Of a stretch of DNA of 64,000 nt, positions 21,881 through 58,811 are shown piece after piece. This DNA is from Acorus gramineus. Its lineage: Eukaryota > Streptophyta > Magnoliopsida > Acorales > Acoraceae. The number at the start of each line of letters is the position of its first letter. Positions within the stretch are counted from its first letter, which is position 1. The stretch is taken from the NCBI GenBank assembly GCA_030737835.1, contig CM060850.1, positions 19,560,216-19,624,215 of the forward strand. Reading direction: 5' to 3'. The notes under the pieces were generated by a model. The model was not told the origin of the DNA. It was given only the letters and a program-made list of their open reading frames with translations, and made no database searches. The position numbers and the translations under genes were made by a program.

Positions 21881-22103
21881 TAAGATGTTGAAAAAATGAT
21901 ATTGTCGACACTAGTACTGTTGATGTATGTACTGGGCCTACTATCTTGGTTTTGCTTGACTCGACCATCCCGATGTCGACAGAATTTGATATTGTCAATA
22001 CTACTGTCGATGAATGTATTGGACCTCCTCTCTTTGTTCTCCTTCATTCGACAATCCAAATGTTGACATAAGTTGATTTTGTTGACATTATTACTGTTGA
22101 GGT
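21881..22103. repeat. Tandem repeat, about 2.5 units of roughly 90 bp
   Basis: Units begin near 21882, 21970 and 22057 with ATGTTGA/ATGTCGACA, then GATATTGTC.A.ACTA, ACTGT.GATG.ATGTA.T and GG.CCT. The last unit is cut by the start of LTR sequence at about 22104. Confidence 0.7.
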
Positions 22104-23169
22104 ATCGCCAACCCACTACACCCTCACCCTCACCCCTCAATAGGTGACATAGGATATTGGGACTTACAATCCAGTGGGTCGCTACATCGCCGACCCACCA
22201 CTCCCTCACCCTCACCCCTCAATATGGTGACATAGGATATTGGAACTGACTAGGCTGATGGTCGCCCTTGGTCCACCGATAGTCTCCCCACTCCGTAGGC
22301 CGTTTGGCCATCCCCACATTCAGCACAGTCAGTCCCAAATCAGGAGGTGCCTACTGATGGGAGCCCCTGCACGGGACAGCCTTTCCAATGCCGGGGTAGT
22401 CTCTACACGGATCCAACGAAGGGAACAGAACAGCCTATCCATCGCATATGATCCACTCGGATCCACAGACAACACATCATAACAACTCTAATGCATAAAT
22501 TCTTCAGAATTTCCTCCAGGGCGCAAAACCAAGATGCGGGGAACATATATAATAAAGTTATCAACAAGAGGTATAATAATAATTATTTACAAGGTTATAA
22601 TATTATTGGGACAAGAAACCTTGGGAGGGCAGCATGAGGTCCCGATACAGGACATCCGACAACCAAACAAGGAACACGGAGTACCCTAGCCCGGGTCTCA
22701 ATGTTGACCTCGCAAGGCCCCTCCCTATAATATTATATAAGACATGCTAGCATACTAAAGTTTGCATTTAAAATTAATAAGTTAAACTAGTAGGACACAT
22801 GCACAGGTCGAGGCTTCCTAGCATGAGATCAGGTGACAGGATGCATGGCTCTTACACTTGTCCTAAGGGTGCAAGTCCCTAACATACAAAGTCTAGGTAG
22901 CATGCATACTACATTTTTATCATGCTTGCATGGATTACACATTATAACAGTTAATATAAATCCATGGTGCCCCAGGGGAAGACGGTACATGCCCAAGTGC
23001 ATATAACGCTTCCCTACTGGGTTGGATTGTCCCACTCACAGCTAGTCGGGTCGTCGCGTGATCGTCCGTCAGAATCTGCAAAATAGGGTAATCAATTCGG
23101 TGAGTAAAACGCACAAATACAACTAAAATACATTAAAATACCCCAACACTCGGACAAGCGTACATACGG

Positions 23170-26298: not shown

Positions 26299-28440
26299 TG
26301 TCACGCCCCGGGCGTCCCCGGGACGCGGCAAGTGTATATATGATATCAGTATAAACAGGAGTTCAATAACATACTCACACAACAACTAAAATGACAACAC
26401 AGACAAAAGCAGGGCTGACATGATATATACACAAATAGCGGAAGCTAAAAGACTGAATCTGTAACTCAAAGACATATTACAGACTCGATACATAATCAAC
26501 TATCCTGTGAGAGCCAATATATACAAAGACATCCAAATAATATACAAACGCGTGCCCAAGCACGGAATATAACACATACAATCAAAAGGGATGCTGATAG
26601 CCTCTGATACTCGCGGGACGTGGCGCTACTCCGCTACTGATGAAGTCCCTCGGGGAGCTCCTCCTCCAGATCCGACTCAGATGACATTGGAGAAAAATAT
26701 TATGCGAGGGGTGAGCCACACGCTCAGTGAACAGCACAACCCATGCATCACAGCTATATTAACCACCAGATCTTATTAACCACAGCCTCATTATTAAAAG
26801 CCACAAAATGGCAACAGCTACACAAATCCAGTGGGTCGCTATCGCCAACCCACTACACCCTCACCCTCACCCCTCAATATGGTGACATAGGATATTGGGA
26901 CTAAACAAACCAGTGGGTCGCTATCGCCAACCCACTACACCCTCACCCTCACCCCTCAATAGGTGACATAGGATATTGGGACTTACAACCCAGTGGGTCG
27001 CTACATCGCCGACCCACCACACCCTCACCCTCACCCCTCAATATGGTGACATAGGATATTGGGACTGACTAGGCTGATGGTCAGCCTTGGTCCACCGATA
27101 GTCTCTCCCCACTCCGTAGGCCGTTTGGCCACCCCCACATTCAGCACAGTCCATCCCAAATCAGGAGGTGCCTACTGATGGGAGCCCCTGCACGGGACAG
27201 CCTTTCCAATGCCGGGGTAGTCTCTACACGGATCCAACGAAGGGAACAGAACAGCCTATCCATCGCATATGATCCACTCGGATCCACAGACAACACATCC
27301 TACCAACTCTAATGCATTAAATTCTTCAGAATTTCCTCCAGGGCGCAAAACCAAGATGCGGGGAACATATATAATAATAGTTATCAACAAGAGGTATAAT
27401 AATAATTATTTACAAGGTTATAATATTATTGGGACAAGAAACCTTGGGAGGGCAGCATGAGGTCCCGATACAGGACATCCCGACAACCAAACAAGGAACA
27501 CGGAGTACCCTAGCCCGGGTCTCAATGTTGACCTCGCAAGGCCCCTCCCTATAATATTATATAAGCATGCTAGCATACTAAAGTTTGCATTTAAAATTAA
27601 TAAGTTAAACTAGTAGGACACATGCACAGGTCGAGGCTTCCTAGCATGAGATCAGGTGACAGGATGCATGGCTCTTACACTTGTCCTAAGGGTGCAAGTC
27701 CCTAACATACAAAGTCTAGGGTAGCATGCATACTATATTTTTATCATGCCTGCATGGATTACACATTACAACAGTTAATATAAATCCATGGTGCCCCAGG
27801 GGAGGACGGTACACGCCCAAGTGCATATAATGCCTCCCTACTGGTTGGATTATCCCACTCACAGATAGTCTGGTCGTCGCGCGACTGTCCGTCAAGATCT
27901 GCAAAATAGGGTAATCAATTCGGTGAGTAAAACGCACAAATACAACTAAAATACATTAAAATACCCCAACACTCGGACAAGCGTACATACGGCCTGTACG
28001 CACGCGAGTCCGAGCACCCCGACTCACTCCCGAACCCCCGGGCAGCCATACGCACGGCCCCCCGCACGCGCACGCACGAATGCGCATGCGCGCACACACC
28101 CCGGCACCATCGGCGCACTGCCGCGCGCCTGCCCGCGCACCCCGACGCACTGCCGCATGCACGCGCACGCTCGCGCGCACCGCTCGTCCAGCCCACCGCG
28201 CCCCCCCGCGCACTGCGCACACGCCCCAGCACGCGCACGCACTGGTCCCCTGCTCCGCGCCTAGGCGCATGCCCAGGCGCCCTGCCTTGCGCCCAGGCGC
28301 CCTGCCCACGCGCGCGCACGCTCGTGCGCACGCCCCTGCGCGCCTGCGCTCACCCGCGTGCACTCCCGCGCGCACCCCCGCTCGCACCCCCGCTCGCGCC
28401 TGCACCCGCTCGCACCCGCGCGCACTCCCTCGCGCACCAG
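26299..28440 (-). repeat. Type B LTR, 5' LTR of element 3 (proximal part)
   Basis: The plus-strand edge TGTCACGCCCCGGGCG is at 26299. It is near-identical to 22104-23520 over the shared part. It contains three minisatellite units (26826-27064), the conserved GTTGTCGG block, the 36-nt block at 27863-27898 and the GC tract (28000-28440). It stops abruptly in the GC tract, at a junction with foreign LTR sequence. In this copy the acceptor of the third block reads CAA rather than CAG. Confidence 0.8.
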
Positions 28441-32430: not shown

Positions 32431-33044
32431 CTTGCTGATTTTTGTACATGTTCCCGCATCTTGATGATGCACCTGGTTGAATTCAGAGGAATTCATGACA
32501 TTTGAGTTGTGATGATATGTAGTCGGCGGATCCGAGTGGATCATATGCGTATGGATAGGCTGTTCTGTTCCCTGCGTTGGATTCGGTAGAGGCTACCCCC
32601 AGCGTTAGAAAGGCCGTCCTTCGGAGGACCCACATAGTAGGCACCTCCTGATTTGGTTTCGGACTGTGCTGAAGTTGTGGGTGGAGACCAAGCGGCCTAC
32701 GGAGTGGAGGGAGAGACTATCGGTGGACCAAGGGTGACCAACAGCCTAGTCAGTCCCAAAATCCTATGTCACCCGTGGTAGGGTGAGGGTGAGGGTGTAG
32801 TGGGTTGGCGATGAGCGACCTACTGGATTTGTGAATAGATGATTATCAGTCCCAATAGCCTATGTCACCCATTGATGGGTGAGGGTGAGGGTGTGGTGGT
32901 TCGGCGAAGTACGAACCACTGGATTATGTTGTTATGTCTTGGAGATTGGATAAATAATGGAATTGTGGTAAATATTGTCTGTGATGCATGGGTTGTGCTG
33001 TTCACTGAGCGTGTGGCTCACCCCTCGCACATGTTTTTCCCCAG

Positions 33045-33582: not shown

Positions 33583-36500
33583 TGTCACGCCCCGGGCGTC
33601 CCCGGTACGCGGCAAGTGTATATAAAATATCAGAATCTACACAGGAGGTCAATAATATAACATACACAAGCAACCAGAATGACACACAGACGACAAAAGC
33701 AGGGCTGACATGATATATACACCAAATGCGGAAGCTAAATACTGAATCTGTAATCAAAACACACTACAGACTCCATACATAATCACATGTCCTGTGAGAG
33801 CCAATATACATACAAAGACATCCAACAATAACACAAACGCGTGCCCAAGCACGGAAAATAATACATACAGGCACAAGGGATGCTGATAGCCTCTGAAACT
33901 CGCGGGACGTGGCGCTACTCCGCTACTGATGAAGTCCCTCGGGGAGCTCCTCCTCCAGATCCGACTCAGATGACACTGAAGAGAAAATATTATGCGAGGG
34001 GTGAGCCACACGCTCAGTGAACGGCACAACCCATGCATCACAGACAATATTGACCCCAACCAGATAATCTTTATAATCCACAAACACATTTCTCAAGACA
34101 CAAAATGATAGCAAAAACTCAAAGCCGTGGGTCGCTCGATCGCCAACCCACTACACCCTCACCCTCACCCTCACCCTTCAATGGGTGACAAAGGATATTG
34201 GGACTGGCTACACACAACCAGCGGGTCGCTTCCGCCAACCCGCTACACCCTCACCCTCACCCCTCAAGGGGTGACCAAGGATATTGGGACTTACAATCCA
34301 GTGGGTCGCCACATCGCCGGCCCACCATACCCTCACCCTCACCCTCAACAGGTGACCTAGGCTCTTGGGACTGACTAGGCTGTTGGTCACCCTTGGTCCA
34401 CCGATAGTCTCTCCCCACTCCATAGGTCGTTTGGCCACTCCCACATTCAGCGCAGTCCTTCTACCAAATCAGGAGGTGCCTACTGATGGGAGCCCCTGCA
34501 CGGGACGACCTTTCCAACGCCGGGGTAGTCTCTACACGGATCCAACGAAGGGAACATAACAGCCTATCCATCGCATATGATCCACTCGGATCCGCAGACA
34601 ACACATCCTAACAACTCTAATGTCCTGAATTCCTCAGAACTCCACCAGGGCGCATAACTAAGATGCGGGGAACATGCATAACAGTTATAACAAGGGTGGA
34701 ATATCATTGGGGGAAAGAAACTCGGGAGGGCAGCGTGAGTTCCCGTTATAGGACACCCCGACAACCAAACAAGGAACACGGTGTACCCTAACCCGGGTCT
34801 CACCGCTGTCCTCGCAAGGCCCCTCCCCTATAATATTCACTAAAGCATGCAATCAAATATTTACTAGCATTTAATTTAATAAACAAACTAGTAGGACACA
34901 TGCATAGGCCAAGGCTTCCTAGCATGAGAATAGGGGACATGGTGCATCGCTCATACACATATCCTAAGGGTGCAAGTCCCTAACATGCAAAGTCTAGGGT
35001 AACATGCATTCTACAATTAAATCATGCTCGCATGATATACACATTACAACATGACAATATCAATCCATGGTGCCCCAGGAGAGGTCGGTATACGCCCAAA
35101 ATGCGTATAACACCTCTCTACTGGGTTGGGTTGTCCCACTCACCGAAATCCGAGTCGTCGCACGACCGTCCGTCAAGATCTGCAAGACAGGGTATTGACT
35201 TGGTGAGTAAAATCCACAAACACACTAAAATACCCAAAAATACACTAAAATACTCTAAAATACCCCATACTCGGGCAATCGTACATACGGCACGTACGCA
35301 CGCTAGCCCGAGCACTCCGGCTCACTCCCGCACCACCGGCAACCACCCGCACGGCCACCCGACCCCTCGGGTGCGCCGCCGCGCCTCAGCCCGCGCACCC
35401 AGGCGCCGCTGGGACCCTGCCTGCTGCCCTGGACCCGCAGCCGAGCCACCCGGTGCACCGCGCCCACTGCGCCCCACCGCAGCAGCCCGCGCGCACCCCC
35501 GCCGCGCGCCCCGCGCGCACCACGCGAGCACACCGCACGCCCCGCGCGCCCAGTGCCTCGCCCCGCGCGCACCCACGCGCACCGCCAGCACGACGCCCCG
35601 CACGCACCCCGCGCGCATCATCCGCTCGCACAGCTCTCCGCACCAGCCGCTCGACCAGCACCCGGTATCCGCGACCCAGCACTCGATGTTCAGCGCCCAG
35701 CACCCGGGACCCTCACTCAACGCCCACGCGCAGGCCCGCGCAACACGTGCCCAGCGCGCCTGGCAGCACGCGCCCAGCGCGCCTACCAGCCTGTCCGCGC
35801 TGCTGCCCGTGTTGCCTGCCTGCGCGCGTCGTCGAGTGGCCCGAGCACTGCTCGCCTGCCCGCCCGAGTACTGCCCGCCTGATGCCCGAGCGCCCCCTGC
35901 TAGCTGCTCGAGCATGGCCTGCCCAGCCGGCCTGCCCTGCTCGCACAGCCCGCAGCCATCCTACTCCGCACGCCTCCCCCTGCACCCCCCGAGCGCACGC
36001 CCATGCGCGCACCCGCGCGCACGCGCTCACGCGCCCGACAACTTGGTGCACCCGCTCCCAGCCTACCCGAGCTAGCCCTGCCAGCCTGCCCGGCGCGCAC
36101 GCCCGCCCTGCTGGCCCCCTGCACCACCCTGCGCTGCTGCCCTGCCCGAGACAGCAGCCCGCCAGCCCGAGCTGCAAGCCTGCCAGCCCAAGCTCCTCTA
36201 CCAACCACCTCCGACCACCACCACAGCCTCCGACCACCTCCCACAGCCCTCCGACGGCCACCCACCGCCGTCGACCGCCTCCCAACCACAAATCTACCCT
36301 CCTAACATACATCTAAGCATGAAAAAGAGGGAAAGGAGGCTTACCAAGGGGAGGAAAGGAAATCCGGTTGCTCTCCGCGCACCGAAACCTCTCCCAAAAG
36401 GTTTCCAACGCCCGGATCTACCTCCACCACCGAAATGGCTCAAATCAGGGAAGAAGAGAGGGGAGACGGAGGGGCAAATCTCGCCGGAATCCGGATTTGA

Positions 36501-37231: not shown

Positions 37232-38866
37232 GGTTGGCTCAGGTAGGCTGGCAGCGCAGGCAGGCAGGGTTGGAAGGCACAGGGCTGGGCGCTATCGGGC
37301 GTGCGTGCGGGTGGAGCAGGGGTGTTCGGGTGCTGCGCGCCGTGCGGGGGCGTGCGCGCGGGGCGCTGCGCGAGCCACAGTGTGTGCCGTGCGCGCGGGG
37401 CTGCGTGCGGGTGCTGCGCGTAGGGCGCCGCGCGGGGAGTGTGTGCGGGGCGATGCGAGCTGGGGCGCAGTGCGGGCGGGTACGCGTGCGGGGCGCTGCG
37501 CTGGGGCGCAGTGCGCGCGGGTGCACCCGGGGCTGGGCAAGTGGGTGGTGCGAGCGGGCGATGCGAGCTGGTGGTGCGTGCGGGGTGCTCGCGGGATGCG
37601 GCGAAGGGGCGCTGGGCGTGCGGGTGTGCGCGCGGGTTGCTGCGCTGGGGTGCAGTGAGCGCGTGGTGCACCGGTGGGGGGCTCAGCGGGGTGTCCGGGC
37701 GTGCAGGCTGTGCTCGGCCGTGCGTCTAGGCGCGCGGGCTGAGGCGTGGCTGTGCGCCTGGGTCGGGTGGCCGTGCGTACGGCTGCCCGGGGGTTTGGGA
37801 GTGAGTCGGGGTGCTCGGACTCGTGTGCGTAGGGGCCGTATGTACGCTTGTCCGAGTGTTGTGTATTTTTAATGTATTTTTGTCGTATTTGTGTATTTTA
37901 CTCACCAAGTTGGTTACCCTATCTTGCAGATCTCGACGGACGGTCGCGCGACGACCCGGTCTTTGGTGAGTGGGACAATCCAACCCAGTAGAGAGGCGTT
38001 ATATGCACTTGGGCGTATACCGTCCACCCCTGGGGCACCGTAGTTGATATTAACCTGTGTAGTATGTAATCCATGCAAGCATGATTAATGCGTAGAATGC
38101 ATGCCACCCTAGACTTCGTATGTTAGGGACTTGCACCCTTAGGATATGTGTAAGAGCCATGCATCCTGTCACCTTGTTATCATGCTAGGAAAGCCTCGGC
38201 CTATGCATGTGTCCTACTAGTTTGATTTATTAAATTAAATGCTAGCATGCCTTGTATAATATTATAGGGAGGGGCCTTGCGAGGTCAACATTGAGACCCG
38301 GGCTAGGGTACTCCGTGTTCCTTGTTTGGTTGTCGGGATGTCCTATATCGGGACCTCACGCTGCCCTCCCAAGGTTTCTTTTCCCAATAATATTATAAAT
38401 CTCGTTAATTATTATTATATATGTTCCCCGCATCTTGGTTATGCGCCCTGGAGGAATTCTGAAGAATTCATGGCATTAGAGTTGTTGTGATGTGTTGTCG
38501 GCGGATCCGAGTGGATCATATGCGACGGATAGGCTGTTCTGTTCCCTTCGTTGGATCCGTGTAGAGACTGCCCCAGTGTTAGAAAGGCTGTCCCGTGGAG
38601 GGGCTCCCATCAGTAGGCACCTCCTGATTTGGGACGGACTGTGCTGAATGTGGGGGTGGCCGAACGGCCTACGGAGTGAGGAGAGACTATCGGTGGACCA
38701 AGGGTGACCATCAGCCTAGTCTGTCCCAATATCCTATGTCACCATATTGAGGGGTGAGGGTGAGGGTGTAGTGGGTTGGCGATAGCGACCCACTGGATTT
38801 GTGTAGTTCTTGCCACTTTGTGGCTTTAATAATAAAATTGTGGTTAATAATATCTGGTGGTTAATA
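37232..38866 (+). repeat. Plus-oriented LTR fragment
   Basis: Begins inside the GC tract (GGTTGGCTCAGGTAGG) and runs through the 36-nt block (37930-37965), the conserved GTTGTCGG block and one hairpin/G-rich unit (38725-38800). It stops at GGTTAATA before the third block. The right edge is shared with the target site of the solo LTR at 38872. Confidence 0.75.
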
Positions 38867-38871
38867 GGGTG

Positions 38872-41815
38872 TGTCACGCCCCAGGGTGGCCGTCCCCGGG
38901 ATGCGGCAAGTGTATATATGATATCAACAGTCTATACAGGAGGTCAATAACATACTCTAAATAACAGCTAAAAATGACAACACAGACAAAAGCAGGGCTG
39001 GCATGATATATACACAAATAGCGGAAGCTAAAAGACTGAATCTGTAATTCAAAAACATATCACAGACTCGATACATAATCAACTGTCCTGTGAGAGCCAA
39101 TATACACAAATACGCCCAAGTATAATACAAACAGGTGCCCAAGCACGGAAATATATACATACAATCAAAAGAAAGGATGCTGATGGCCTCTAACACTCGC
39201 GGGACGTGGCGCTGCTCCACTACTCATGAAGTCTCTCGGGGAGCTCCTCCTTCAGGTCCGACTCAGTGATAACTGTAGAAAAATATATATGCGAGGGGTG
39301 AGCCACACGCTCAGTGAATAGCACAACCCATGCATCACAATTTATATTAACCACAAATAATTAATCAAGCCTCAAAGTGGCAGGAACTACACAATCCAGT
39401 GGGTCGCTACATCGCCGACCCACCACACCCTCACCCCTCAATAGGTGACATAGGATATTGGGACTGACTAGGCTGTTAATCACCCTTGGTCCACCGATAG
39501 TCTCTCCTCCACTCCGTAGGCCGCTTGGCCACTCCCACACTTCAGCACAGTCCGAATCCAAATCAGGAGGTACCTACTGATGGGAGCCCTCTAACGGGAC
39601 GGCCTTTCTAACGCTGGGGCAGTCTCTATACGGATCCAACGAAGGGAACAGAAACAGCCTATCCATACGCATACGATCCACTCGGATCCGTCGGCAACAC
39701 CTCTCATCAACTCTAATGTCATGAATTCTTCAGAATTCCTCTAGGGCGCATAACTAAGATGCGGGGAAACATATATTATAATATTATTGGGAAAAGAAAC
39801 CTTGGGAGGGCACCATGAGGTCCCGACATAGGACATCCTGACAACCAAACAAGGAACACGGAGTACCCTAGTCCGGGTCTCAATGTTGACCTCGCAAGGC
39901 CCCTTAATATTCCCTAAGGCATGCTAAAATACCATAAGTTCGCATTTAATTTAATAAATTAAACTAGTAGGACACATGCATAGGTCGAGGCTTCCTAGCA
40001 TGAGAACATGGTGACAGGATGCATGGCTCTTACACATATCCTAAGGGTGCAAGTCCCTAACATACACGGTCTAGGGTAGCATGCATACTACATATTAATC
40101 ATGCTTGCATAGATTACATATTAAACAGGTTAATATTAAACTACGGTGCCCCAGGGGAGGACGGTACACGCCTAAGTGCATATAGCGCCTCCCTACTGGG
40201 TTGGGTTGTCCCACTCACCGATAACCGGGTCGTCGCGCGACCGTTCGTCAAGATCTGCAAGACAGGGTAATCAACTCGGTGAGTAAAATACACAAATATA
40301 AACAAAAATACACTAAAATACCCAACACTCGGACAAGCGTACATACGGCCCGTACGCACGCGAGTCCGAGCACCCCGACTCACTCCCGAACCCCTGGGCA
40401 GCCGTACGCACGGCCACCCGACCCAGGCGCACAGCCGCGCCCCAGCCCGCGCGCCCAGACACACGGCCGAGCCCCTGCCCGCATGCCCGGACCCACTGTC
40501 GAGCCCCCCGGGTGCACCGCACGCTCACTGCGCCCCAGCGCAGCAACTCGCGCGCACACCCGCACGCCCTGCGCCCTAGCGCAGCACCCCACGCGCACCA
40601 CCCGCTCGCCTTATCGCGCGCGCACAGCACGCACTGCGCCTCTGCGCAGCGCTCCACCCGCACGCCCCCACACGGCGCCCTGCGCGCAGCACCCGCACGC
40701 GGCCCCGCGCGCACAGTACGCACTGCGCCTCTGCGCAGCTCTCCGCGCGCACGCCCTCGCACGGCGCCCAGCGCGCAGCACCCGCACACCACCCGCGTAC
40801 TGCGCCCCCTGCGCAGCACCCTCGCGCACGCCCGCGCGCGTGCCCTGCTAGCCTGCTCTGCCCGCCCTGCCTGCCAGCCCGCCTGCCTGCGCTGCCAGCC
40901 TACCCGAGACAACCCTACCACCTCCCCGACGGCCACCAATGGCCACCAACAGCCACCAACCGCCACCAACAGCCATGCATACCCCAAAAACACTTCCTAA
41001 CATACATCTAAACAAGAAATGGAAGGAAAGAAACCTTACCCAAGGAGAGGAAAGCAAAAGGGGAGGAGATCGGGTGCTTTTCGCGCACCGAAACACCACC
41101 TCCAAGACTACCACCACCGAGATCTCCAACTCAGCCAAAGAGGGGCTGAAACAGAGGAGAAAAGAGGGTATGAGAAGGGGTCACACATGTGGGAATTCGA
41201 ATCCGAGACCACCGGAAGGTAGATCGGGTTCTTACCTATCCTTTCTCTTCTTAGGGTTTTTTATTTCCACCACTAGAACTAGGTCAAACGGGGGGATTAA
41301 AGAGAGGGAGAGAGAGAGAAATTTTGGAGAAGATGATGAATAGGAGGCTTATGTTGTCGTGGGATTTCTTTATACTCACACACCCACCACACACTCTCAC
41401 ACCCACACTTAGATTAGCCCTAATTAGGTTTAGGCTAGGATTAGATTAGGTTTAAGTGTGGTTTGACCCTAGTCAACCCAACCACACTAAAATCCAAACT
41501 CATTTGACCAAGTCAAAGGTCAACCTTGACCAAGTCAAGTCTCCCAATGACTTTTCGCTCGGTCAAAACCCGGATACGCTTCGGAACTGTGAAATTTTGA
41601 AACGTTACCAGAATTCGATAAAATTTTCGTGAGTGGCTTGGAATGGCACCAGGACACATAATATGCAGTTAGATTTTCAATCGGAGCCCTCAAACTCAGG
41701 GTGATAGCCACAAGTCCAAAATTTTAGCGGTTCTGATCGAAAAACGAAAAAGCTGAAAAACTGCCAGAATGTTCCAATGGTTACCAGAAGGCTAAAAAGT
41801 GACACATATATAATA
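38872..41815 (-). mobile_element. Solo LTR (type A, 2944 bp), target duplication GGGTG
   Basis: Plus-strand left edge TGTCACGCCCCAGG (38872), right edge GTGACACATATATAATA (41815). GGGTG flanks both sides (38867-38871 and 41816-41820). The terminal ACA has changed to ATA. It has the third block, one hairpin unit (39395-39470), the 36-nt block (40219-40254) and the GC tract (40340-40920). Confidence 0.88.
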
Positions 41816-45243: not shown

Positions 45244-46958
45244 TTCTATATGTGTCACTTTTAACCTTCTGGTCACCGTTGGGACATTCTGACAGTTTTT
45301 CAATTTTTTTCATTTTTTGATCGTAACCGCTAAAATCTCGGACTGTTAGCTATCGTCCTGAGTTTGAGGACCCCGATTGAAAATCTAACTGCATATTATG
45401 TGTCCTGGTGACATTCCAAGCCACTCGCGAAAGTTTCATCGAATTCCGGTAATGTTTCAGAATTTCACAGTTCCGGGGCGTATCCGGGTTTTGACCGAGC
45501 GAGAAGTCATTGGAAAAGTTGACTTGGTCAAAGTGGGCCCATGACTTGGTCAACCCCTTTTGTTTTTTTGTGTGGTTGGGTTGACCCAAGTCAAAGCTCA
45601 CTTAAGCCTCACTAATCCTCTCTTAACCCTAATTAAACCTAATCTAAGTGGGGATTAACCTATAAGTGAGCTAAATATCTTCTCTCCCCCACTATTCATC
45701 ATCTTCTCCATTTGATTTTCTCTCTCCCCCTCTCTCTTTTTCTTGGTTTTGACCTAGCTAGAGGGGTTAAAATCAAAAGCACAAAGAAGAGAAAGGTTAG
45801 ATCTCATCCCGATCTATCCACCGGTGGTCTCGGATTCGAGTTCCGACGAGTTCGACCCCCTCAAGCGCCCTCTTTTCTCCCCTGTTTTCAACTGGTTTGA
45901 GGGCTGAGAGAGATCGAGGTGGTGGTGGTCCTTGAGGAAGTGTTTCGGTGCGCGGAGAGCAACTGAACTCCCCTTCCCTTCCTTTCTTTGCTTGGGTAAG
46001 GCTTTCTCTCATTCCTTTCTTGTTTAGATGCTTGTTAGGAGGATGTTTTTGAGTTGGGGTGGCTGTGGGTAGAGGCCATTGGTGGCCGGTGAGAGGTGGT
46101 AGGGTGGCTCGGGCAGGGTGGTGGGCTGTCCCGGGTAGGTTGGCAGGCAGGCAGGGCAGCGCGGGCAGGCGCAGGGCTGGGCGCAGGCAGGGCAGCGTGG
46201 GCGTGCACGCGGGCGTGCGCCCGGGTGGAGCTCGGTTCGGGCGCATGCGGGCAGCGGCGCGCGCAGGCAGTCAGGCGCAGGCGGGCGAGCTGCGGGCAGG
46301 CGCGCTGGGCGCGTGCTGACTGGCTCGCTGGGTGCGTGCGGTCGGGCGTGCTGGGCGCAGTGCGCGGCGTGCACGCGGAGCGCTGCGCAGGGGCGCGTGG
46401 ACGAGCGGGTGGTGTGCGGGTGCTGCGCAGGGGACGTAGTGCGCGCAGGGTGAGCAGTCGGTGCGAGCGGGCAGGTGTGCGGGCGCTGCGCTGGGGCGCA
46501 GTGCGGGCGGGTGCGCGTGCGGGGAGTTGCGATGGGGCGCAGTGCGCGCGGGTGCACCCGGGGCTGGTTGAGCGGGTGGTGCGAGCGGGTGATGCGAGCG
46601 GGTGATGTGTGCAGGGTGCGCGCGGGGCGAGGCGTTGGGGCGTAGGGCGTGCGGGTGTGCGCGCGGGTTGCTGCGCTGGGGCGCAGTGGGCGCGGTGTGC
46701 ACCCGGGAGGCTCGGTGGGGTGTCCGGGCGTGCGGGCTGGGCTCGGCCGTGCGACTGGGCGCGCGGGCTGAGGCGCGGCTGTGCGCCTGGGTCGGGTGGC
46801 CGCGCGTAGTGCTGCCCGGGGGTTCGGGAGTGAGTTGGAATGCTCGGACTCGCGTGCATACAGGCCGTATGTAGGCTTGTCCGAGTGTTGTGTATTTTAA
46901 TGTATTTTTGGATTTATTTGTATATTTTACTCACCGAATTGATTACCTTATTTTACAG

Positions 46959-46994
46959 ATCTTGACAGACGGTCGCGCGATGACCCGATCATCG
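46959..46994 (+). promoter_or_regulatory. 36-nt splice-framed block, second plus-strand copy
   Basis: Borders TTATTTTACAG and GTGAGTGGGAC. In-frame peptide DLTDRR-like reading is avoided; the frame that joins to 48163 gives LDRRSRDDPII then VSSESDPEEELPEGLHQ and TAG at 48213. Confidence 0.5.
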
Positions 46995-47780
46995 GTGAGT
47001 GGGACAATCCAACCCAGTTGGGAGGCGCTATATGCACTTGGGCGTGTACCGTCCTCCCCTGGGGCACCATGGATTTATATTAACTTGTTGTAATGTGTAA
47101 TCCATGCAAGCATGATAAAAATGTAGTATGCATGCTACCCTAGACTTTGTATGTTAGGGACTTGCACCCTTAGGATATGTGTAAGAGCCATGCATCCTGT
47201 CACCCTGTTCTCATGCTAGGAAGCCTCGGCCTATGCATGCGTCCTACTAGTTTAATTTATATAATTGATTGCTAGCATGTCTTAGATAATATTACAGGGA
47301 GGGGCCTTGCGAGGTCAACATTGAGACCCGGGCTAGGGTACTCCGTGTTCCTTGTTTGGTTGTCGGGATGTCCTGTATCGGGACCTCATGCTGCCCTCCC
47401 AAGGTTTCTTGTCCCAATAATATTATAACTCTTGTTAAAAATTATTATTATACCTCTTGTTAATAATTATTATATATATGTTCCCCGCATCTTGGTTATG
47501 CGCCCTGGAGGAATTCTGAAGAATTCATGGCATTAGAGTTGTTGTGATGTGTTGTCTGCGGATCCGAGTGGATCATATGCGATGGATAGGCTGTTCTGTT
47601 CCCTTCGTTGGATCCGTGTAGAGACTACCCCGGCGTTGGAAAGGCTGTCCCGTGCAGGGGCTCCCATCAGTAGGCACCTCCTGATTTGGGACGGACTGTG
47701 CTGAATGTGGGGGTGGCCAAACGGCCTACGGAGTGGGGAGAGACTATCGGTGGACCAAGGGTGACCATCAGCCTAGTCAG

Positions 47781-48030
47781 TCCCAATATCCTATGTCACC
47801 ATATTGAGGGGTGAGGGTGAGGGTGTAGTGGGTCGGCGATGTAGCGACCCACTGGATTGTAAGTCCCAATATCCTTTGTCACCTATTGAGGGGTGAGGGT
47901 GAGGGTGTAGTGGGTTGGCGATAGCGACCCACTGGTTTTGTGTAGTCAGTCCCAATATCCTTTGTCACCTATTGAGGGGTGAGGGTGAGGGTGTAGTGGG
48001 TTGGCGATAGCGACCCACTGGATTGTATAG
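47781..48030 (+). repeat. Three-unit LTR minisatellite with G-quadruplex motif and hairpin
   Basis: Units start at 47781, 47864 and 47950 (TCCCAATATCCT.TGTCACC), periods 83 and 86 bp. Each has GGGG-TGA-GGG-TGA-GGG-TGTAGT-GGG (first unit 47808-47832), a canonical G-quadruplex pattern. This overlaps a stem AGTGGGTCG (47827-47835) / CGACCCACT (47845-47853) with a 9-nt loop. The second and third units have a shorter loop and one T-G pair. Confidence 0.85.
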
Positions 48031-48444
48031 TTGTTGCCATTTTGTGGCTTTTAATAATGAGATTGTGGATTAGTAATATCTGGTGGTTAATATAGCTGTG
48101 ATGCATGGGTTGTGCTATTCACTGAGCGTGTGGCTCACCCCTCGCATAATATTTTTCTCCAGTGTCATCTGAGTCGGATCCGGAGGAGGAGCTCCCCGAG
48201 GGACTTCATCAGTAGCGGAGTGGCGCCACGTCCTGCGAGTATCAGAGGCTATCAGCATCCCTTGTGATTGTATGTGTTATATTCCGTGCTTGGGCACGCG
48301 TTTGTATATTATTTGGATGTCTTTGTATATATTGGCTCTCACAGGACAGTTGATTATGTATCGAGTCTGTAATATGTTTTTGGATTACAGATTCAGTCTT
48401 TTAGCTTCCGCTATTTGTGTATATATCATGCCAGCCCTGCTTTT

Positions 48445-48661: not shown

Positions 48662-48676
48662 TTCTCCCCCCCTTAG
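48662..48676 (-). other. Polypurine tract, element 1
   Basis: Minus strand AAGGGGGGGAGAA directly before the LTR start TGTTATATATG. It is the expected plus-strand primer for reverse transcription. Confidence 0.85.
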
Positions 48677-50850
48677 GAAATTTTGTCCTCAAAATAAATA
48701 CAAGAACATCTAAGATGCGGATACGCGTCACGCATGGCGTCCTCAAGCTCCCAAGTGGCCTCGGCACCGGAACGGTGCTGCCATCGCACCTTGACCAGCT
48801 GGACGGTCTTGGTGCGGAGCCTCTTCTCGCGGCGGTCCAGGATCTCAATCGGCTGCTCAACGAATGACAAGTCCGGCTCGAAGACGAGCGGCTCGAACGG
48901 GATGACGTGAGTAGGATCGTGGACATAGCGCCTCAGCTGCGAGACATGGAAGACGTCATGGGCCTGAGCCAACTGTGGGGGCAGAGCTATGCGATAGGCC
49001 ACCTCCCCAACTCGCTCGAGGATGAGGAACGGCCCAATGAAACGCGGACTCAGCTTGCCCCGCACACCGAAACGGAAGATGCCCTTCATCGGGGACACCT
49101 TCAAGAAGACATGGTCACCAACCTTGAAGGCGAGCTCACGGCGACGACGGTCGGCGTAGCACTTCTGACGACTCTGAGTGACTCGGATACGCTCGCGAAT
49201 CGTCTTCACCATCTCTGAGGTCTGGTGAACGATCTCTGGTCCCTCCAACTGGCGCTCTCCAACCTCGTCCCAACACAGGGGGGACCTGCAGCTACGGCCA
49301 TAGAGTGCCTCGTAAGGAGCCATCCGGATGCTCGAGTGGTAGCTGTTGTTGTAGGCAAACTCCACCAACGGAAGGTGCCTCTCCCAACTGCCCCCAAAAT
49401 CGAGAACACAGGCTCGCAGCATGTCCTCAAGAGTCTGGATCGTCCTCTCCGACTAGCCGTCCGTCTGCGGATGAAACGATGTACTGAAGTGGAGGTTCGT
49501 ACCAAGGGCGTGTTGGAGGCTACGCCAGAACCTCGAAGTAAAACGTGCGTCTTGATCAGAAATGATGCTGACTGGAGTGCCATGGAGACGGACAATCTCG
49601 GAGACAAATAACTGCGCCAGGGTGTCCAGAGAATCGGTGAGTAAGATGGGGAGGAAATGAGCAGACTTCGTCAGCCGGTCGACGATCACCCAGATGGCAT
49701 CGCGACCCGAACGTGACCTCGGCAAACCTGAGACGAAGTCCATGGTGATCTGCTCCCACTTCCACTGAGGGATCTCAATGGACTGCAGCTTCCCCGCAGA
49801 GGGCTGATGCTCCGACTTCACCTGCTGCCATACTAGGCATCGGGCAACGAAACGGGCAATATCCGTCTTCATCCAGCGCCACCAGTAGCCACGACGAAGG
49901 CCCCTGTACATCTTCGTGCCACCAGGATGCACTGTGTACCTCGAACGATGGGCCTCGTCCAGAATCTTCCGCTTCAGCTCTGCGTCGTCGGGGATGCACA
50001 CTCGGCCTCTGAATCGCAGGATCCCGTCCGCACGAATCTGGTAGTCCGGACGCTCGCCCCGGGCGACGCCTTCAGAAAGGACTATAAAATGCGGATCCTG
50101 AGCCTGAGCCGTGCGGATATCGTCGAGAAGGACTGGCTGCACCACTAGCCTGGCCAAAAAGCCACCTGCAGGAGTCTCTCGAACACTGATCCAGCAAGCG
50201 GCCTCCTCCAAAAGCCTCCAACGACGGACAGCCATGTGGGCGGCCATGCCCAAGGGCTGCCTACTGAGCGCATCTGCCACGACATTCGCCTTACCCGGAT
50301 GGTAAGCGATGTCACAATCATAGTCCGTCAGGAACTCAACCCAACGTCTCTGACGCATGTTGAGCTCTGGCTGGGACTGCAAATATGTCAAGCTCTTATG
50401 ATCGGTAAAGAGCTCGAACTCCTCTCCATAGAGGTAATGCCTCCACATCTTCAGCGCAAAGATGATCGCTGCCAACTCCAGGTCGTGGGTGGGGTAGTTC
50501 TGCTCATGGGGCTTCAACTGACGAGACGCGTAAGCCACAACCTTACCGTGCTGCATCAGGACGCAACCCACACCCAACTGCGATGCATCAGTGTAAACTG
50601 TGAACCCACCACTCCCAGATGGAAGGGTAAGAACTGGCGCTGAGGTGAGCCTTCGCTTCAGCTCCTGGAAGCTCTCCTCGCAAGCAGAGGACCACTCGAA
50701 CCGAACATCCTTCCGAGTGAGGCGGGTAAGAGGAACGGCTATCTTCGAGAAACCCTCGACAAACCTCCTGTAATAACCCGCCAAGCCCAAGAAGCTCCGA
50801 ATCTCTGTGGGGTTCGACGGTCGACGCCAATTCGACACGGCGAGCGTCTT
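48673..50850 (-). pseudogene. Element 1 RNase H, integrase and chromodomain region
   Basis: Continues the RT frame with [35 protein letters not shown], then RNase H ([57 protein letters not shown]). Integrase follows ([55 protein letters not shown]), with its catalytic Asp residues visible. A TAG stop at 49455-49453 interrupts the frame directly after FHPQTDG. Beyond it the same frame runs on through PLVEFAYNNSYHSSI, the GPY-type module (GPFLILERVGEVAYRIALP) and a chromodomain-like tail (VKVRWQHRSGAEATWELED). Confidence 0.88.
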
Positions 50851-52081
50851 CTCCGGGTCCACAGACTGATGAACCGAACAACTGATGTCTGGCCAAAGTC
50901 TCCAAGACAGTGCGGAGATGGTGAGCGTGCTCCTCAAGACTCCTCGAGTACACCAATATGTCATCGATGAATACTACCACAAAGGAGTCGAGGAAGGGCC
51001 GAAACACCCGGTTCATCAGATCCATGAAGGCCGCCGGTGCATTCGTCAACCCGAATGGCAGTACTCTGAACTCGTAGTGCCCATACCGGGTGCGAAAGGC
51101 CATCTTCGGAATGTCTGACTCCCGGATCTTCAGCTGGTAGTACCCCGAGCGGAGATCGATCTTGGAAAAGACACGCGCTCCCTGGAGCTGGTCAAACAGA
51201 TCGTTGATCCGCGGCAACGGGTACTTGTTCTTCACTGTCCGTTTATTCAGCTGCCTGTAATCAATACACAGCCGCAGCGAACCGTCCTTCTTCCGGACGA
51301 ACAGGACAGGGGCTCCCCACGGAGAAACACTCGGACGTGCGAAGCCCTTCTCCAGCAACTCCTCCAACTGCTCTTTGAGCACCCTCAGCTCTGCAGGGGC
51401 CATCCGGTACGAAGCTCTCGAAATCGGCTCGGTCCCCGGAATCAGATTGATCTCAAACTCGATCGCGCGATCCGGCAGTAATCCTGGAAGATCATCGGGG
51501 AAAACCTCAGGATACTCTGCCACGACCGGAGTCTGACTGATATCTGCCCGCAGCGGTGCATCCTCCTGAGCAATGTACGCTAGAAAGCCCTCACATCCTC
51601 CCTGAAGGAGTCTCCACGCCTGCATGGACGACACGAACCCCAAAGGGGCTACGTCACGATCGCCCACGAACTGGAAGGACCTCCGACCCGGAAGGTGGAA
51701 AGACACCGACTTGGCAAAACAGTCGATGCTGGCATGACTAGCCGCAAGCCAATCCATTCCCAGGATGGCATCAAAGTCCGTCATCGCGAGCTCCACCAAC
51801 TCCACCGGAAACTCATGCTCCGCAACCGTCACCGTACACCCTCGGTACACTGAACTGAGGAGAATACGGTCTCCCACGGGCAATGATATCTCTAAGACAG
51901 CATCTAAAGGAGCAGACGCCACGCTCGTCCGTCTCGCAAAAGCGGGAGACACGAACGAGTGTGTGGCTCCGGAATCAAACAATACATAAGCAGGGAGCTG
52001 GGAGATCTGAACAATACCTCTGACCACGCTGCCTGATGCCTGAGCCTCCTCTGCCGAAAGCGCTGCCACTCGGCCCTGCAC
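50850..52081 (-). pseudogene. Element 1 protease and reverse transcriptase
   Basis: Aspartic protease active site [12 protein letters not shown], then [18 protein letters not shown] follows: [72 protein letters not shown], and the catalytic [12 protein letters not shown]. After [10 protein letters not shown] about 25 expected residues before SVDPEK are missing and the frame changes, so the thumb is broken by a deletion near 50868. The corresponding segment (GFLGHVISGKG) survives in element 3. Confidence 0.88.
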
Positions 52082-52161
52082 GAACTGCGGCTGAGGAGCA
52101 GGGGCACGCCTCGCCGGCTGCGCTGGCTGCCTCCTCTGGTCTGCTGCTGACGCTGAGGCTG

Positions 52162-53439
52162 CTACTGCGGCTGGCGCTGAGGCTGCTGCTGCTGCTGGAA
52201 CAGCTGCTGAAACGACTGCTGAAACGGCTGCTGCTGCAACTGCTGCTGCTGCGGAGGCATCACTCGGGGTCGGCCAGCATCAGGGCAATTATACAAGATA
52301 TGCCCTATGCGTTGACAGTGATAACAGCGCCGCAACTCTGGTCGCCTCGCCTGGACCGGCACTGCTGCGATGGGTGCTGGACCTCGCGCTGGCACCACAT
52401 CTGCTGGAGGAGGGGCAGCCGCTGACCGATCAAAGCGGGCCCTCTTCTTCCTGCGCTGTCCCTGGTCCTGGCTCCTGGGTGGCCTCTGATCTGCCGAAGG
52501 GGTCAAAACCGTCACGAGGATCCCGAGGTCTCGCTCGACTGTCTTCGCTCGAGACACCAAGTCGGAGTACCTCGTGAATGCCTGGGAGGTAACATGCACC
52601 CGAATGGCGCTGCTGAGGCCAAGCTCGAATCGACGGCACCTCGTCTCCTCGTCCATCACCAAGGCTGGAGCAAATCTGGATAGCCTCGTGAAGCGCGTGG
52701 AGTAGTCAGCGACGGACATAGAGCCCTGCGTCAGCTGCTCAAACTCCCGCATCACGATCTGCCGCGTCGAGAACGGGAAGTACTCCTCCAAGAAATACCT
52801 CTGGAACCCCGCCCATAAAAGCTGCTCCACTCCCTCCGGGATGTCCACTGATCTAGTAGCCCACCAGTCGGCGGCGCTACTCTTTAGCATAAAAGTGGCC
52901 AGGGAGACTTGCTGGCGATCCATGCAATGCATGGTCGAGAAGATTGCATCCACTTCCATCAAACATCGCTCTGGAGCAAGAGGATCCGCCGTCTGACCAT
53001 AAAACTCGGGAGGGTGGAGCTTCAGAAAGGCGCTAAGACCACTCTGGTGCACCCTCGCTGCCGCCTCCAGCTCCACCTCCCTCTCCTGGCGATCCTGAAC
53101 TCTCGCCGCCGGAACAACCACAGGGACTGGGGGTACATCGGGTACCACAGGTGGATCTGCCACCAAAGGAACCTGCGGAACTGCCTCGCGGGCCGCCCGC
53201 AGCTCCTGAATCTCCCGTGCCTGCTCTGCCAACACCCTCGTCTGGGTCTCCAATGCCCTGGTCTGCGTCTCCACCAAATCTGCTATCCGCGCAAACGCGC
53301 GCTCCCAGGCAGGAGGCTCCTGTGCCGATCCTGGCCTCACGGCTGAGGACTCCCCAGTAGCATCCTCGCCTCTGGCAGGTCCGGAAACCTCCAAAGGTCG
53401 AGAGGGACCTCGTCCGCGCCGTCCTCTGCGAGGAGGCAT
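52162..53439 (-). CDS. Element 1 gag
   Basis: 425 codons from [19 protein letters not shown] coiled-coil-like region ([20 protein letters not shown]) is followed by the retrotransposon gag domain (AAFLKL-type [63 protein letters not shown]). A CCHC knuckle ([14 protein letters not shown]) and a poly-Gln tail come last. It ends in TAG within the Gln-rich tract, and the protease frame is shifted relative to it. Element 2's gag continues in frame to pol, so the break here is probably damage in CAG repeats. Confidence 0.85.
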
Positions 53440-53541
53440 ATCAGCAACCTAAGAAAACTAGACACTAGGATCAGAATACTCATATAGAAATCCTAGGACT
53501 CATCTCTACGAAAAAGAAGACAATTGGCTTTGACAGGACCA

Positions 53542-53554
53542 GGCTCTGATACCA
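53542..53554 (-). other. Primer binding site, element 1
   Basis: Minus strand TGGTATCAGAGCC, 5 nt inside the LTR end (GGGCGTGACA), complementary to initiator tRNA-Met. Confidence 0.88.
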
Positions 53555-53559
53555 ACTTT

Positions 53560-54121
53560 TGTCACGCCCCAGGGCGGCCGTCCCTGGGACGCGGCAAGTG
53601 TATACATGATATCAGCAGTCTATACAGGAGATCAATAAAATACTCTAAACAGCAACTAAAATGACAACACAGATGAAAACAAAGCTGACATGATATATAC
53701 ACAGATAGCGGAAGCTAAAAGACGGAGTCTGTAATCCAAAAACATACTACAGACTCGATACATAATCAAACGTCCTGTGAGAGCCAATATACACAATACA
53801 TCCAAATACAATCCAAACTGGTGCCCAAGCACAGAAACATATACATACAATAAAAAGGATGCTGATGGCCTCAAAACTCGTGGGACGTAGCGCTACTCCG
53901 CTACTGGTGCAGTCGCTCGGGGAGCTCCTCCTTCAAGTCCGCCTCAGTAATCACTGGAGAAAATAAATATGCCAAAAATACGATATAAATACCCAACACT
54001 CGGACAAGCATGCATACGGGCCCGTACGCACGCGAGTCCGAGTGCCCCGACACACTCCCGCACCCCCGGGCAGCCATGCGCACGGCCACCCCCACGCACG
54101 CGCACGGGTGCGCACGCACGC
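53560..54121 (-). repeat. Element 1 5' LTR, part next to the PBS
   Basis: Plus-strand edge TGTCACGCCCCAGGGCGG. It includes the third block (about 53902-53955) and then jumps at AAATAAATATG to the AACACTCGGACAAGC sequence that borders the GC tract. About 1.5 kb with the hairpin units and the 36-nt block is therefore deleted. The rest of this LTR resumes at 56805. Confidence 0.75.
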
Positions 54122-56798
54122 TGTCACGCCCAGGGCGGCCGTCCCCGGGACGCGGCAAGTGTATACATGATATCAGCAGTCTATACAGGAGATCAATAAA
54201 ATACTCTAAACAGCAACTAAAATGACAACACAGATGAAGACAAAGCTGACATGATATATACACAGATAGCGGAAGCTAAAAGACAGAGTCTGTAATCCAA
54301 AAACATACTACAGACTCGATACATAATCAAACGTCCTGTGAGAGCCAATATACACAATACATCCAAATACAATCCAAACTGGGTGCCCAAGCACAGAAAT
54401 ATATACATACAATAAAAAAGATGCTGATGGCCTCAAAACTCGCGGGACGTAGCGCTACTCCGCTACTGGTGCAGTCCCTCGGGGAGCTCCTCCTTCAAGT
54501 CCGCCTCAGTAATCACTGGAGAAAACAAATATGCGAGGGGTGAGCCACACGCTTAGTGAATAGCGCAACCCATGCATCACAGTTTATATTAACCACAATT
54601 AATCAGCAACCAGCCTCAAAGTGGCATAAACAACATAAATCCAGTGGTCCGTTACATCGCCGAACCACTACACCCTCACCCTCACCCCTCAATAGGTGAC
54701 ATAGGATATTGGGACTTATTAGCCTGATAAACATCCATACACATCCATACACCCTCACCCTCACCCCTCAATAGGTGACATAGGATATTGGGACTGATAA
54801 TCATCCATACACATCCATACACCCTCACCCTCACCCCTCAATAGGTGACATAGGATATTGGGACTGACTAGGCTATTAATCACCCTTGGTCCACCGATAG
54901 CCTCTCCTCCACACCGTAGCTCGCCTGGTCTACTCCCACATTCAGCACAGTCCGAAACCAAAATCAGGAGGTGCCTACTGATGGGAGCCCTCTGTCAGGA
55001 CAGCCTGTCTAACGCTGAGGAGTCCCTACAATGATCCAACGAAGGGAAGAGAAACAGCCTACCCACACGCATATGATCCACTCGGATCCGCTAACAACAC
55101 ATCTCTACAACTCTAGTGTCTTGAATTCATCAGAATTCCTCCAGGGCGCATAACCAAGATGCGGGGAACATGCATTAATATAGACGGGAAAAGAAACCTT
55201 GGGAGGGCACCATGAGGTCCCGATATAGGACATCCCGACAACCAAACAAGGAACACGGAGCACCCTAGCCCGGGTCTCAATGTTGACCTCGCAAGGCCCC
55301 TTAATATTCCCTAAGGCATGCTATAATATTACAAGTTGCATTTAATTTAACAAATTAAACTAATAGGACGCATACAAAGGCCGAGGCTTTCCTAGCATGA
55401 TAACAAGGTGACAAGATGCATGGCTCTTACACAACCTAAGGGTGCAAGTCCCTAACATACTCAGTCTAAGGTAGCATGCATACTACATATCAATCATGCT
55501 TGCATGGATTACATATTAAACAGGTTAATATTAATCTATGGTGCCCCAGGGGAGGACAATATACGCCCAAGTGCATATAGCGCCTCCCAACTGGGTTGGA
55601 TTGTCCCACTCACCGGTAATCAGGTCGTCGCGCGACCGTCCGTCAAGATCTGCAAGACAGGGTATCAACTTGGTGAATAAAATCCACAATACACCAAAAA
55701 TACTCTAAAAATACACAACACTCGGGCAAACGTACATACGGCCCGTACGCACGCGAGCCCGAGCACCCCAACTCATTCCCGAACCCTCGGCAACCACCCG
55801 CACGGCCACCCGCCCCCGGATGCACCGCCACCCGCCCCCGGATGCACCGCCGCGCCCCAGCCCGCGCGCCCAGGTGCCCTGTCGAGCCCCTGCCCGCACG
55901 CCAGGACACGCCGCCGAGCTCTCCAGGTGCACCGCGCGCTCACTGCGCCCCAGCGCAGCAGCCTACGCGCACACCGCACGCCCCGCGCCCAGCGCCTCGC
56001 CCCCCGCGCGCTCCGCGCGCACCACCGCTCGCCTCACCGCGCGCACGCCCGCGCCTCTGCGCAGCGCTCCGCGCGCACGCTCCGCATGGTGCCCAGCGCC
56101 CAGCACCCTCGCCCAGCACACCCAGCGCCCAACACAGCGCCTACGCCACCCGAGCGCACGCCCGCGCGCACGTCCGCGCGCACGCGCGCGCGCGCCCTGC
56201 CACTGCACGCCTGCTGCGCCTGCCTGCTGCACTGCCTGTGCTGCCTGCTGCCCGAGACAGTCAACCACCCTGCCCGAGCACCTCTCCACCACCCACCGGC
56301 CACCAGTGGTCTCCGACCGCCCCTAACCATTTGAGAAGATGATGAATAGTGGGGGGCAAATTTAGCTCTCACTTATATAAGTCAACACACTTAGGTTAGG
56401 GTTAACCTAGGCTTAATTAGGGCTAAGAGAGGTTTTAAGTGGGATTTGACTTGGGTCAACCCAACCACACAAAAAAACAAAAAGGGTTGACCAAGTCATG
56501 GGCCCACTTTGACCGAGTCAACTCTCCCAATGACTTCTCGCTTGGTCAAAACCCGGATACGCCCTGGAACTGTGAAATTTCTGAAACGTTACCGGAATTC
56601 GATGAAATTTTCGTGAGTGGCTTAAAATGGCACCAGGACACATAATATGCAGTTAGATTTTCAATCGGAGTCCTCAAACACAGGAAGATAGCTAACAGTC
56701 CAAAATTTTAGCGGTTCCGATCGAAAAACGAAAAAACTCAAAAACTGTCAGAATGCTCCAATGGTTACCATAAGGCTAAAAGTGACACATATATAACA
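54122..56798 (-). mobile_element. Solo LTR (type A, 2677 bp) nested in the 5' LTR of element 1
   Basis: Plus-strand edges TGTCACGCCCAGGGCGG (54122) and GTGACACATATATAACA (56798). Flanks GCACGC (54116-54121) and GCACGC (56799-56804) are the target duplication. It may be 5 bp, as the site is a CACG repeat. It has minisatellite units (54640-54870), the 36-nt block (55614-55649), the GC tract (55740-56290) and a TATA box (56372-56381). Confidence 0.85.
56372..56381 (-). promoter_or_regulatory. LTR TATA box
   Basis: CTTATATAAG (self-complementary), with ACTATTCATCATC downstream on the minus strand at 56350-56338. Confidence 0.6.
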
Positions 56799-57989: not shown

Positions 57990-58811
57990 GTATACCAGGT
58001 AGTGGCTACCCGGGAGAGGGTTAACGAATAATATTGGTGAGGGTGAGGATGAGGCGAAGACACATCGCCGCGTGACCCATTCGTTGTTCGACCGTTCCCA
58101 TAGTTGTTGGGTCCGGTCTTGTAATCGATGATCAAGGACATCGTTGGGCAGTTATCTAGATGTAGATGATCCAGTAGTGTTGTGTAGACCAGTAATTCCG
58201 GGTCTCTTCGACCGACGGTATGGTCTCTCCCCAAAAGTCCCAAGAGTCTCCCTCCGGGAGTGAGGGTAAGGGCGAGGTGGGTCGCACCGCCGCGTGACCC
58301 TGTTATCCATGGGTTTCCACCCATGTTTTCCTTGTGAGGAAATTGTTTGAGTATTGAACTGTAGTATGGTGATTGGTTTCCAGCCACTCACTGAGCTTGT
58401 AGCTCACCCCTCGCATACTGTTTCTTTTCAGGGGCAGTGTTGGGCGTGGAGCTGGAGCTTTCCTGTGGCGTGGTCTTATGGGCGTGGAGCGTTCTTCCGG
58501 CAAGTGGCGAGTGCGAGGCTGTCAGCAGTCCTAGAGTCATTGTATGTATTGTAATTCGCGCATGTGGCACAGGTTGTATTTTCTTTGGTCTAGACTTGGC
58601 TCTCACAGGACAGTGATTGTGTATTCGAGTCTGTAATAATGTTCTTGATTTACAGACATTGTTTATATATTATGCTTCCACTTTTCAGTCAGTTATCATT
58701 ATCTTGCTTTGTCTCCTTGTGTATTGTTGTTGGAGTTTTTATTGACCTCAGGTATTGATAGCTGATATTATATTATTATTGCCACGTCTCGGGGACGCCT
58801 GGGGCGTGACA
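57990..58811 (+). repeat. Diverged LTR (type C) 3' fragment
   Basis: Shares only the general plan with type A LTRs. G-rich units with GGGTGAGGATGAGG and GAGTGAGGGTAAGG are followed by CACTGAGC.TGTAGCTCACCCC, an acceptor-like TTTCTTTTCAG (58422-58432), CTCTCACAGGACAG and the end GGGGACGCCTGGGGCGTGACA (58811). It is only moderately similar elsewhere. Confidence 0.65.

Follow-up and report, generated by a model that had tools for sequence, protein, structure and literature searches.

A repeated hairpin in the LTR minisatellite of a Ty3/gypsy element, with stem pairing possibly kept by selection

In this paper we describe a minisatellite in a window of 64 kb, the whole stretch of DNA that was analysed, in which LTR elements are nested on both strands at about 22-58 kb. 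Eight LTR copies or fragments contain 18 units of this minisatellite, and 15 of the units form a complete 9-bp hairpin. We give an even chance to the reading that selection on pairing has maintained it as a repeated sense-strand RNA hairpin in the LTR leader of a Ty3/gypsy (chromovirus-like) element, the host being Acorus or a near relative. The stem, its copy number, its wobbles and its compensated pairs are direct observations. If the reading is true, the repeated hairpin with its compensating changes would be a concrete and easily tested cis-element. The arrays and their hairpins are as follows.

47779..48037, forward strand: A47, three units of one LTR, hairpins at 47827-47853, 47909-47933 and 47995-48019
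32752..32937, forward strand: A32, two units, hairpins at 32799-32824 (G-U at pair 4) and 32895-32920 (pair 6 T-A, fourth G-run lost)
38722..38811, forward strand: A38, single unit, hairpin at 38770-38794
34116..34372, reverse strand: A34, three units, hairpins at 34300-34326 (C x A at pair 7), 34220-34244 (pair 3 C-G) and 34126-34152 (A x G at pair 1)
54627..54865, reverse strand: A54, three units, hairpin solely in the last (54643-54669; pair 6 T-A, pair 7 T-G)
26813..27066, reverse strand: A26, three units, hairpin in all (26992-27018, 26912-26936 and 26830-26854)
22090..22247, reverse strand: A22, two units, one complete (hairpin at 22173-22199) and one cut inside the hairpin at about 22103
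39385..39465, reverse strand: A39, single unit with one fewer G-run, hairpin at 39398-39424

The units are 70-96 nt long as cut and are alike within an array. A covariance model built from 15 units recovered the same 18 and no others in the window up to E 5. The exact unit pattern had no match in viral contigs or in genome contigs described as prokaryotic, so that all 18 units come from one window. The original prediction placed an array at 47781..48030, which we find as the three units of A47 with their stems present, and it assigned a hairpin and a G-quadruplex motif to every unit. Both generalisations go too far. Two of the three A54 units, in the LTR adjoining the gag reading frame, have TATGGATGTGTATGGATG instead of the hairpin, with the remainder of the unit intact, and a junction truncates the A22 unit at 22090-22164. 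The four-run quadruplex motif is present in 13 of the 18 units and is missing from the A39 unit, all three A54 units and the second A32 unit. Another minisatellite, with an 87-nt unit, adjoins the cut end of the A22 array (21897-22097).

In A47 the stem is AGTGGGTCG/CGACCCACT in one unit and AGTGGGTTG/CGACCCACT in two. Over the 15 hairpins, 133 of 135 pair cells are standard pairs, the broken ones being the C x A at pair 7 (34300-34326) and the A x G at the outermost pair (34126-34152). Three stem pairs are invariant. One-sided variation is found at pair 1 (A-U in nine units, G-U in five, A x G in one), pair 4 (a single G-U), pair 7 (one U-G and one C x A) and pair 8 (U-G in eight, C-G in seven). 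The two predicted double changes are borne out: pair 3 has changed from T-A to C-G in one unit (34220-34244, AGCGGGTTG/CGACCCGCT), and pair 6 from G-C to T-A, or U-A in RNA, in two units. These are the second unit of A32 (A32u2, GGTGGTTCG/CGAACCACT at 32895-32920, where the change had been given at 32896-32919) and the last unit of A54 (A54u3). For the latter a T-G intermediate had been proposed at 54643-54668, which was a misreading of the register, as pair 6 there is T-A just as at 32895 and the wobble belongs to the neighbouring pair 7. The minority unit with one mismatch is indeed seen, as the C x A of the first A34 unit, but it lies at 34300-34326 and not at 34305-34330, and the second broken pair had been overlooked. 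A32u2 and A54u3 group on a tree built without the stem columns, and the pair 6 change is therefore probably a single shared event.

Stem columns are as changeable as those around them, with 0.67 parsimony steps per column where the upstream columns have 0.64 and the G-runs 0.68, which argues that pairing is kept and not sequence. Perfect 9-bp inverted repeats with a loop of 5-10 start at 36 positions in 22001-58000, with repeats of every kind and overlapping windows included in the count; 20 Markov-1 resamples averaged 0.4. RNA folding of six of the 18 units gave z scores of -2.1 to -3.5. A wider fold, consisting of an AGTCC/GGATT closing stem, a second helix ATATCCT/AGGGTGT and TCACC/GGTGA, is predicted in many units in varying form, and the RNAalifold consensus is related but different. 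Broken cells number 7 of 75 in the closing stem and 5 of 105 in the second helix, and TCACC/GGTGA is complete in 14 of 15 units; the remaining one, A39, is misplaced in the alignment. No pair there has changed on both sides, and we do not claim this fold. A search of 22001-58900 against Rfam gave no match at the gathering score.

Tests against relatedness were run on the 15 complete hairpins, and leaving out the three units without one favours pairing. When the 3' letters were shuffled among sequences, none of 500 shuffles equalled the real data in share of paired cells, in doubly changed cells or in covariation score, while two doubly changed pairs arose in 18 of the 500 and the number of pair types in 155. 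Slid partners were 21-53% paired, and the slide by -3 (53% paired) also gave two doubly changed pairs. Our null model placed the parsimony number of stem changes randomly on neighbour-joining trees of the units, free of any pairing constraint. It left a mean of 120 of 135 cells paired; at least 133 were reached at P 0.0003 (6 of 18,000) and at least two doubly changed pairs at P 0.05. In 12 settings with all 15 units, which differed in the columns used for the tree, the share of transitions and the weighting of branches, P was 0-0.003 for paired cells and 0.02-0.08 for double changes. The corresponding values were 0.0013 and 0.059 with site-fixed rates, and 0.0008 and 0.036 with 11 units. With A34u2 dropped, P was 0.0017 for paired cells and 0.23 for the remaining double change; with A32u2 and A54u3 dropped, 0.0073 and 0.19.

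The covariation check that had been recommended was run in the manner of R-scape on the units of the window (200 simulations). Among the nine proposed pairs E is 0.0052 for pair 6 and 0.075 for pair 3, but over all column pairs it is 1.9 and 27. The unpaired column 88 scores level with pair 6, since it too singles out A32u2 and A54u3. These results are suggestive, not decisive: they support retention of pairing for the helix as a whole and not covariation of single pairs. The earlier argument that two compensated pairs suggest selection thus keeps its force in so far as pairing exceeds the tree null. It loses some because there are just two such pairs in 15 related units of one window, because of the E values over all pairs, because one of the pairs probably reflects a single event and because the arms may have been copied.

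Of five one-sided transitions, four produce a G-U pair when read in the sense of the element and would be A-C in the antisense. This strand bias is in line with folding of the sense RNA, although so few changes are not significant by themselves. The isolated hairpin is predicted to be more stable in sense than in antisense in 14 of 15 units (means of -14.2 and -11.6 kcal/mol), the exception being A34u1. DNA folds of three units also beat shuffles (z -2.6 to -4.2), so that folding does not separate RNA from DNA. Of the proposal that selection acts on an RNA (or DNA) structure, possibly in packaging or dimerisation, the general part has gained from the tree null, the G-U bias and the sense stability, but the particular part finds no support: a self-complementary loop stretch of at least 4 nt is present in 1 of 15 loops (34126-34152, CGATCG, read by eye).

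The main rival to a leader structure is that mutation itself keeps the arms matched: replication or reverse transcription would switch templates or convert one arm to the other, units would also spread within arrays, and no selection would be involved. Two double changes cannot decide between these readings, and we consider arm copying rather unlikely. Each double change could be one templated event, the units of an array resemble each other, and the region is rich in duplications and inverted copies. Frequent copying, however, would be expected to give perfect matches, whereas the U-G at pair 8 persists in 8 of 15 units and the G-U at pair 1 in 5 of 15. It is also conceivable, if improbable, that the inverted repeat is a DNA site, either two half-sites that a dimeric DNA-binding protein recognises or a hairpin extruded from the DNA, which would act as a repeated enhancer. 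Tandem arrays in LTRs can serve as enhancers, the arms are palindromic and the DNA hairpin is predicted in the three units mentioned above. A DNA site sits less well with loops of 7-9 nt, which vary the half-site spacing, with the alteration of half-site sequence in two lineages, and with the position of the arrays downstream of the likely promoter.

The fourth G-run of the unit sits in the 5' arm of the stem, which makes hairpin and quadruplex mutually exclusive and raises the question whether the G-runs are what matters. A quadruplex in LTR DNA or RNA would then tune transcription or reverse transcription and the hairpin would be a by-product, which we think a minor possibility. The frequency of the four-run motif is in line with this, as are the three G-runs retained even in the A54 units without a hairpin and the G4Hunter scores of 1.52-2.00 in all 18 units (1.52-1.76 in those without the four-run motif). 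There is also precedent: plant LTR elements carry sense-strand GGG runs and G4 motifs, which lie past the predicted promoter in the LTR's 3' half (Lexa et al., PMC3902901), and a G4 put into the 3'UTR of Ty1 lowers retrotransposition (PMC8074290). By its sequence motif the array is an instance of these plant LTR quadruplex motifs with a hairpin added, alike in strand, in LTR half and in lying 3' of a predicted promoter. It differs in that the runs stand in a tandem unit, that the 5' arm of a hairpin uses the fourth run, and that the hairpin outlasts the four-run motif in two units. In these two, A32u2 and A54u3, the G-C to T-A change at pair 6, for which the 3' arm compensates, is also what removes the fourth G-run; as the hairpin stays, pairing was kept there and not the four-run motif. 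Their G4Hunter scores are 1.52 and 1.68, and they may form weaker quadruplexes. A quadruplex as the selected feature would thus have to accommodate five of 18 units without the motif, two of them through a stem-preserving change, and it leaves the paired 3' arm unexplained. Units with the hairpin but not the four-run motif bear on the question whether quadruplexes are the reason that G-rich LTR motifs persist.

The place of the arrays within the LTR is described by the following features.

45661..45700, forward strand: TATA-like and start-like sequence TATAAGTG ... CTATTCATC of the A47 LTR, a putative promoter
46959..48162, forward strand: exon-like 36-nt block (46959-46994), then intron-like GTGAGT ... 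CTCCAG (46995-48162) holding A47 near its 3' end
46955-47000, 31767 and 37926, forward strand: copies of the exon-like block
55653, 40258, 35183, 27902 and 23079, reverse strand: copies of the exon-like block
53522..53570, reverse strand: LTR 3' end GGGGCGTGACA and primer binding site TGGTATCAGAGC, 5' of gag (limits approximate)

Six LTR starts were examined. Each has a start-like CTATTCATC or CTGTTCATC 295-479 nt into the LTR, preceded by a TATA-like sequence in five and by a weaker TTAAAT in one. In five LTRs the arrays begin 1484, 1878, 2087, 2266 and 2521 nt beyond the start-like site. Lying 1.5-2.5 kb downstream of promoter-like sites, they should be transcribed, and we infer that the array is part of a transcribed R/U5 leader. 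Very GC-rich short tandem repeats of the CGCGCG type are found 3' of the start-like site (30586-31584, 35472-36255, 37389-37524, 40422-40975, 46095-46791 and 55800-56248); they are open in several frames on both strands and are probably non-coding.

The exon-like block (ATCTTGACGGACGGTCGCGCGACGACC...) has the form TTGCAG (TTACAG in one copy), 36 nt, GTGAGT, and lies 5' of the array in all eight array-bearing copies. Downstream there is a pyrimidine-rich site in seven places, of which six adjoin arrays and the seventh belongs to the distant 58 kb LTR. The site has AG in all but the 26 kb copy, which has AA, and it falls roughly 110-145 nt past the array in the copies at 47 and 54 kb. The block and the later CTCCAG-like site could make up a putative spliced leader. 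R and U5 are copied from RNA, so a stretch spliced from the genomic RNA would vanish at the next reverse transcription. As many copies contain the intron-like stretch, it must either be retained in the genomic RNA or not be an intron at all. A conserved coding frame in the exon-like blocks was considered and rejected, as there is no clear coding signal by codon position: variable columns number 7, 6 and 7 of 12 each in the first block (eight copies), and 7 of 17, 2 of 18 and 5 of 18 in the second (five of seven copies, the longer 32 kb and the distant 58 kb ones being left out). None of 18 frames (three from each of the six LTR starts, up to 420 residues) is free of stops.

If the leader hairpin that we favour is real, the unit would be a small structured domain of the element's sense RNA, transcribed from the LTR promoter and situated within the R/U5 leader. 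During the active life of the lineage, selection on pairing would have maintained the 9-bp hairpin, with each LTR carrying one to three copies. It would probably have acted in cis, as a structure in the leader of the unspliced genomic RNA. Its role is a guess: it might be a docking site for Gag or host RNA-binding proteins, or serve to retain the nearby intron-like stretch. A further idea, to which we give very little credence, is that the array is an RNA switch, in which hairpin and quadruplex share the fourth G-run. It would keep the intron-like stretch unspliced in the genomic RNA so that it survives reverse transcription, and would thereby separate genomic from messenger RNA. In the LTR 5' of gag the 3' end is duplicated (53560-54534, reverse strand; 97.6% over 414 nt), and the inner copy has sequence like that before the exon-like block joined directly to the CTCCAG site without an array. 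Distant LTR relatives at 25440-25540 (reverse strand) and 58010-58330 (forward strand) have hairpin-forming sequence of different letters at the position of the unit, for example TCTCC(C)/GGGAG and GGGTCGC/GTGACCC in the 58 kb relative. These are a lead towards a structure kept across families.

Four pieces with reading frames on the reverse strand (48673-53448) match Retrotrans_gag, RVP_2, RVT_1, RT_RNaseH and Integrase_H2C2 above the cut-off. The integrase core rve is below it (21.6 against 32.6), and so is a Chromo match at the integrase C-terminus (E 0.00045, 20.5 bits against 25.1). With predicted gag, protease, RT, RNase H and integrase the element is a Ty3/gypsy LTR retrotransposon. The LTRs also have TG..CA ends, starting with TGTTATATATGTGTCAC and ending with GGCGTGACA, and an adjacent tRNA primer site, TGGTATCAGAGC, which we take to be of the initiator tRNA-Met type. 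The weak chromodomain match leaves the chromovirus-like character uncertain, and the element may belong to a Tekay/Del-type chromovirus lineage. The long-LTR elements of that type share the order protease, RT, RNase H, integrase and TGGTATCAGAGC after the LTR, and the weak chromodomain match would fit them; the LTR described here has GC-rich repeats, an exon-like block and a structured minisatellite. A place in the 5' leader of the RNA, presumed for the hairpin described here, is shared with retroviral packaging and dimerisation hairpins; the present hairpin differs in rarely having a self-complementary loop stretch (1 of 15) and in standing in an array about 1.1 kb from the primer binding site in the 54 kb LTR. 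Our literature search found quadruplex work on plant LTR elements and no paper on a selected RNA hairpin in such elements, and the array itself appeared in no title or abstract found.

A gag piece has 89% identity, across 96% of the query, to a predicted protein of Acorus gramineus. A. gramineus accounts for seven of the ten hits listed, in a search that scored the 7996 candidate proteins with the most words in common. These matches make Acorus, for which genome papers exist (PMC10281966, PMC10282084), the probable host. A fragment of a further retrotransposon-like aspartic protease reading frame is found at 61863-62729 on the reverse strand.
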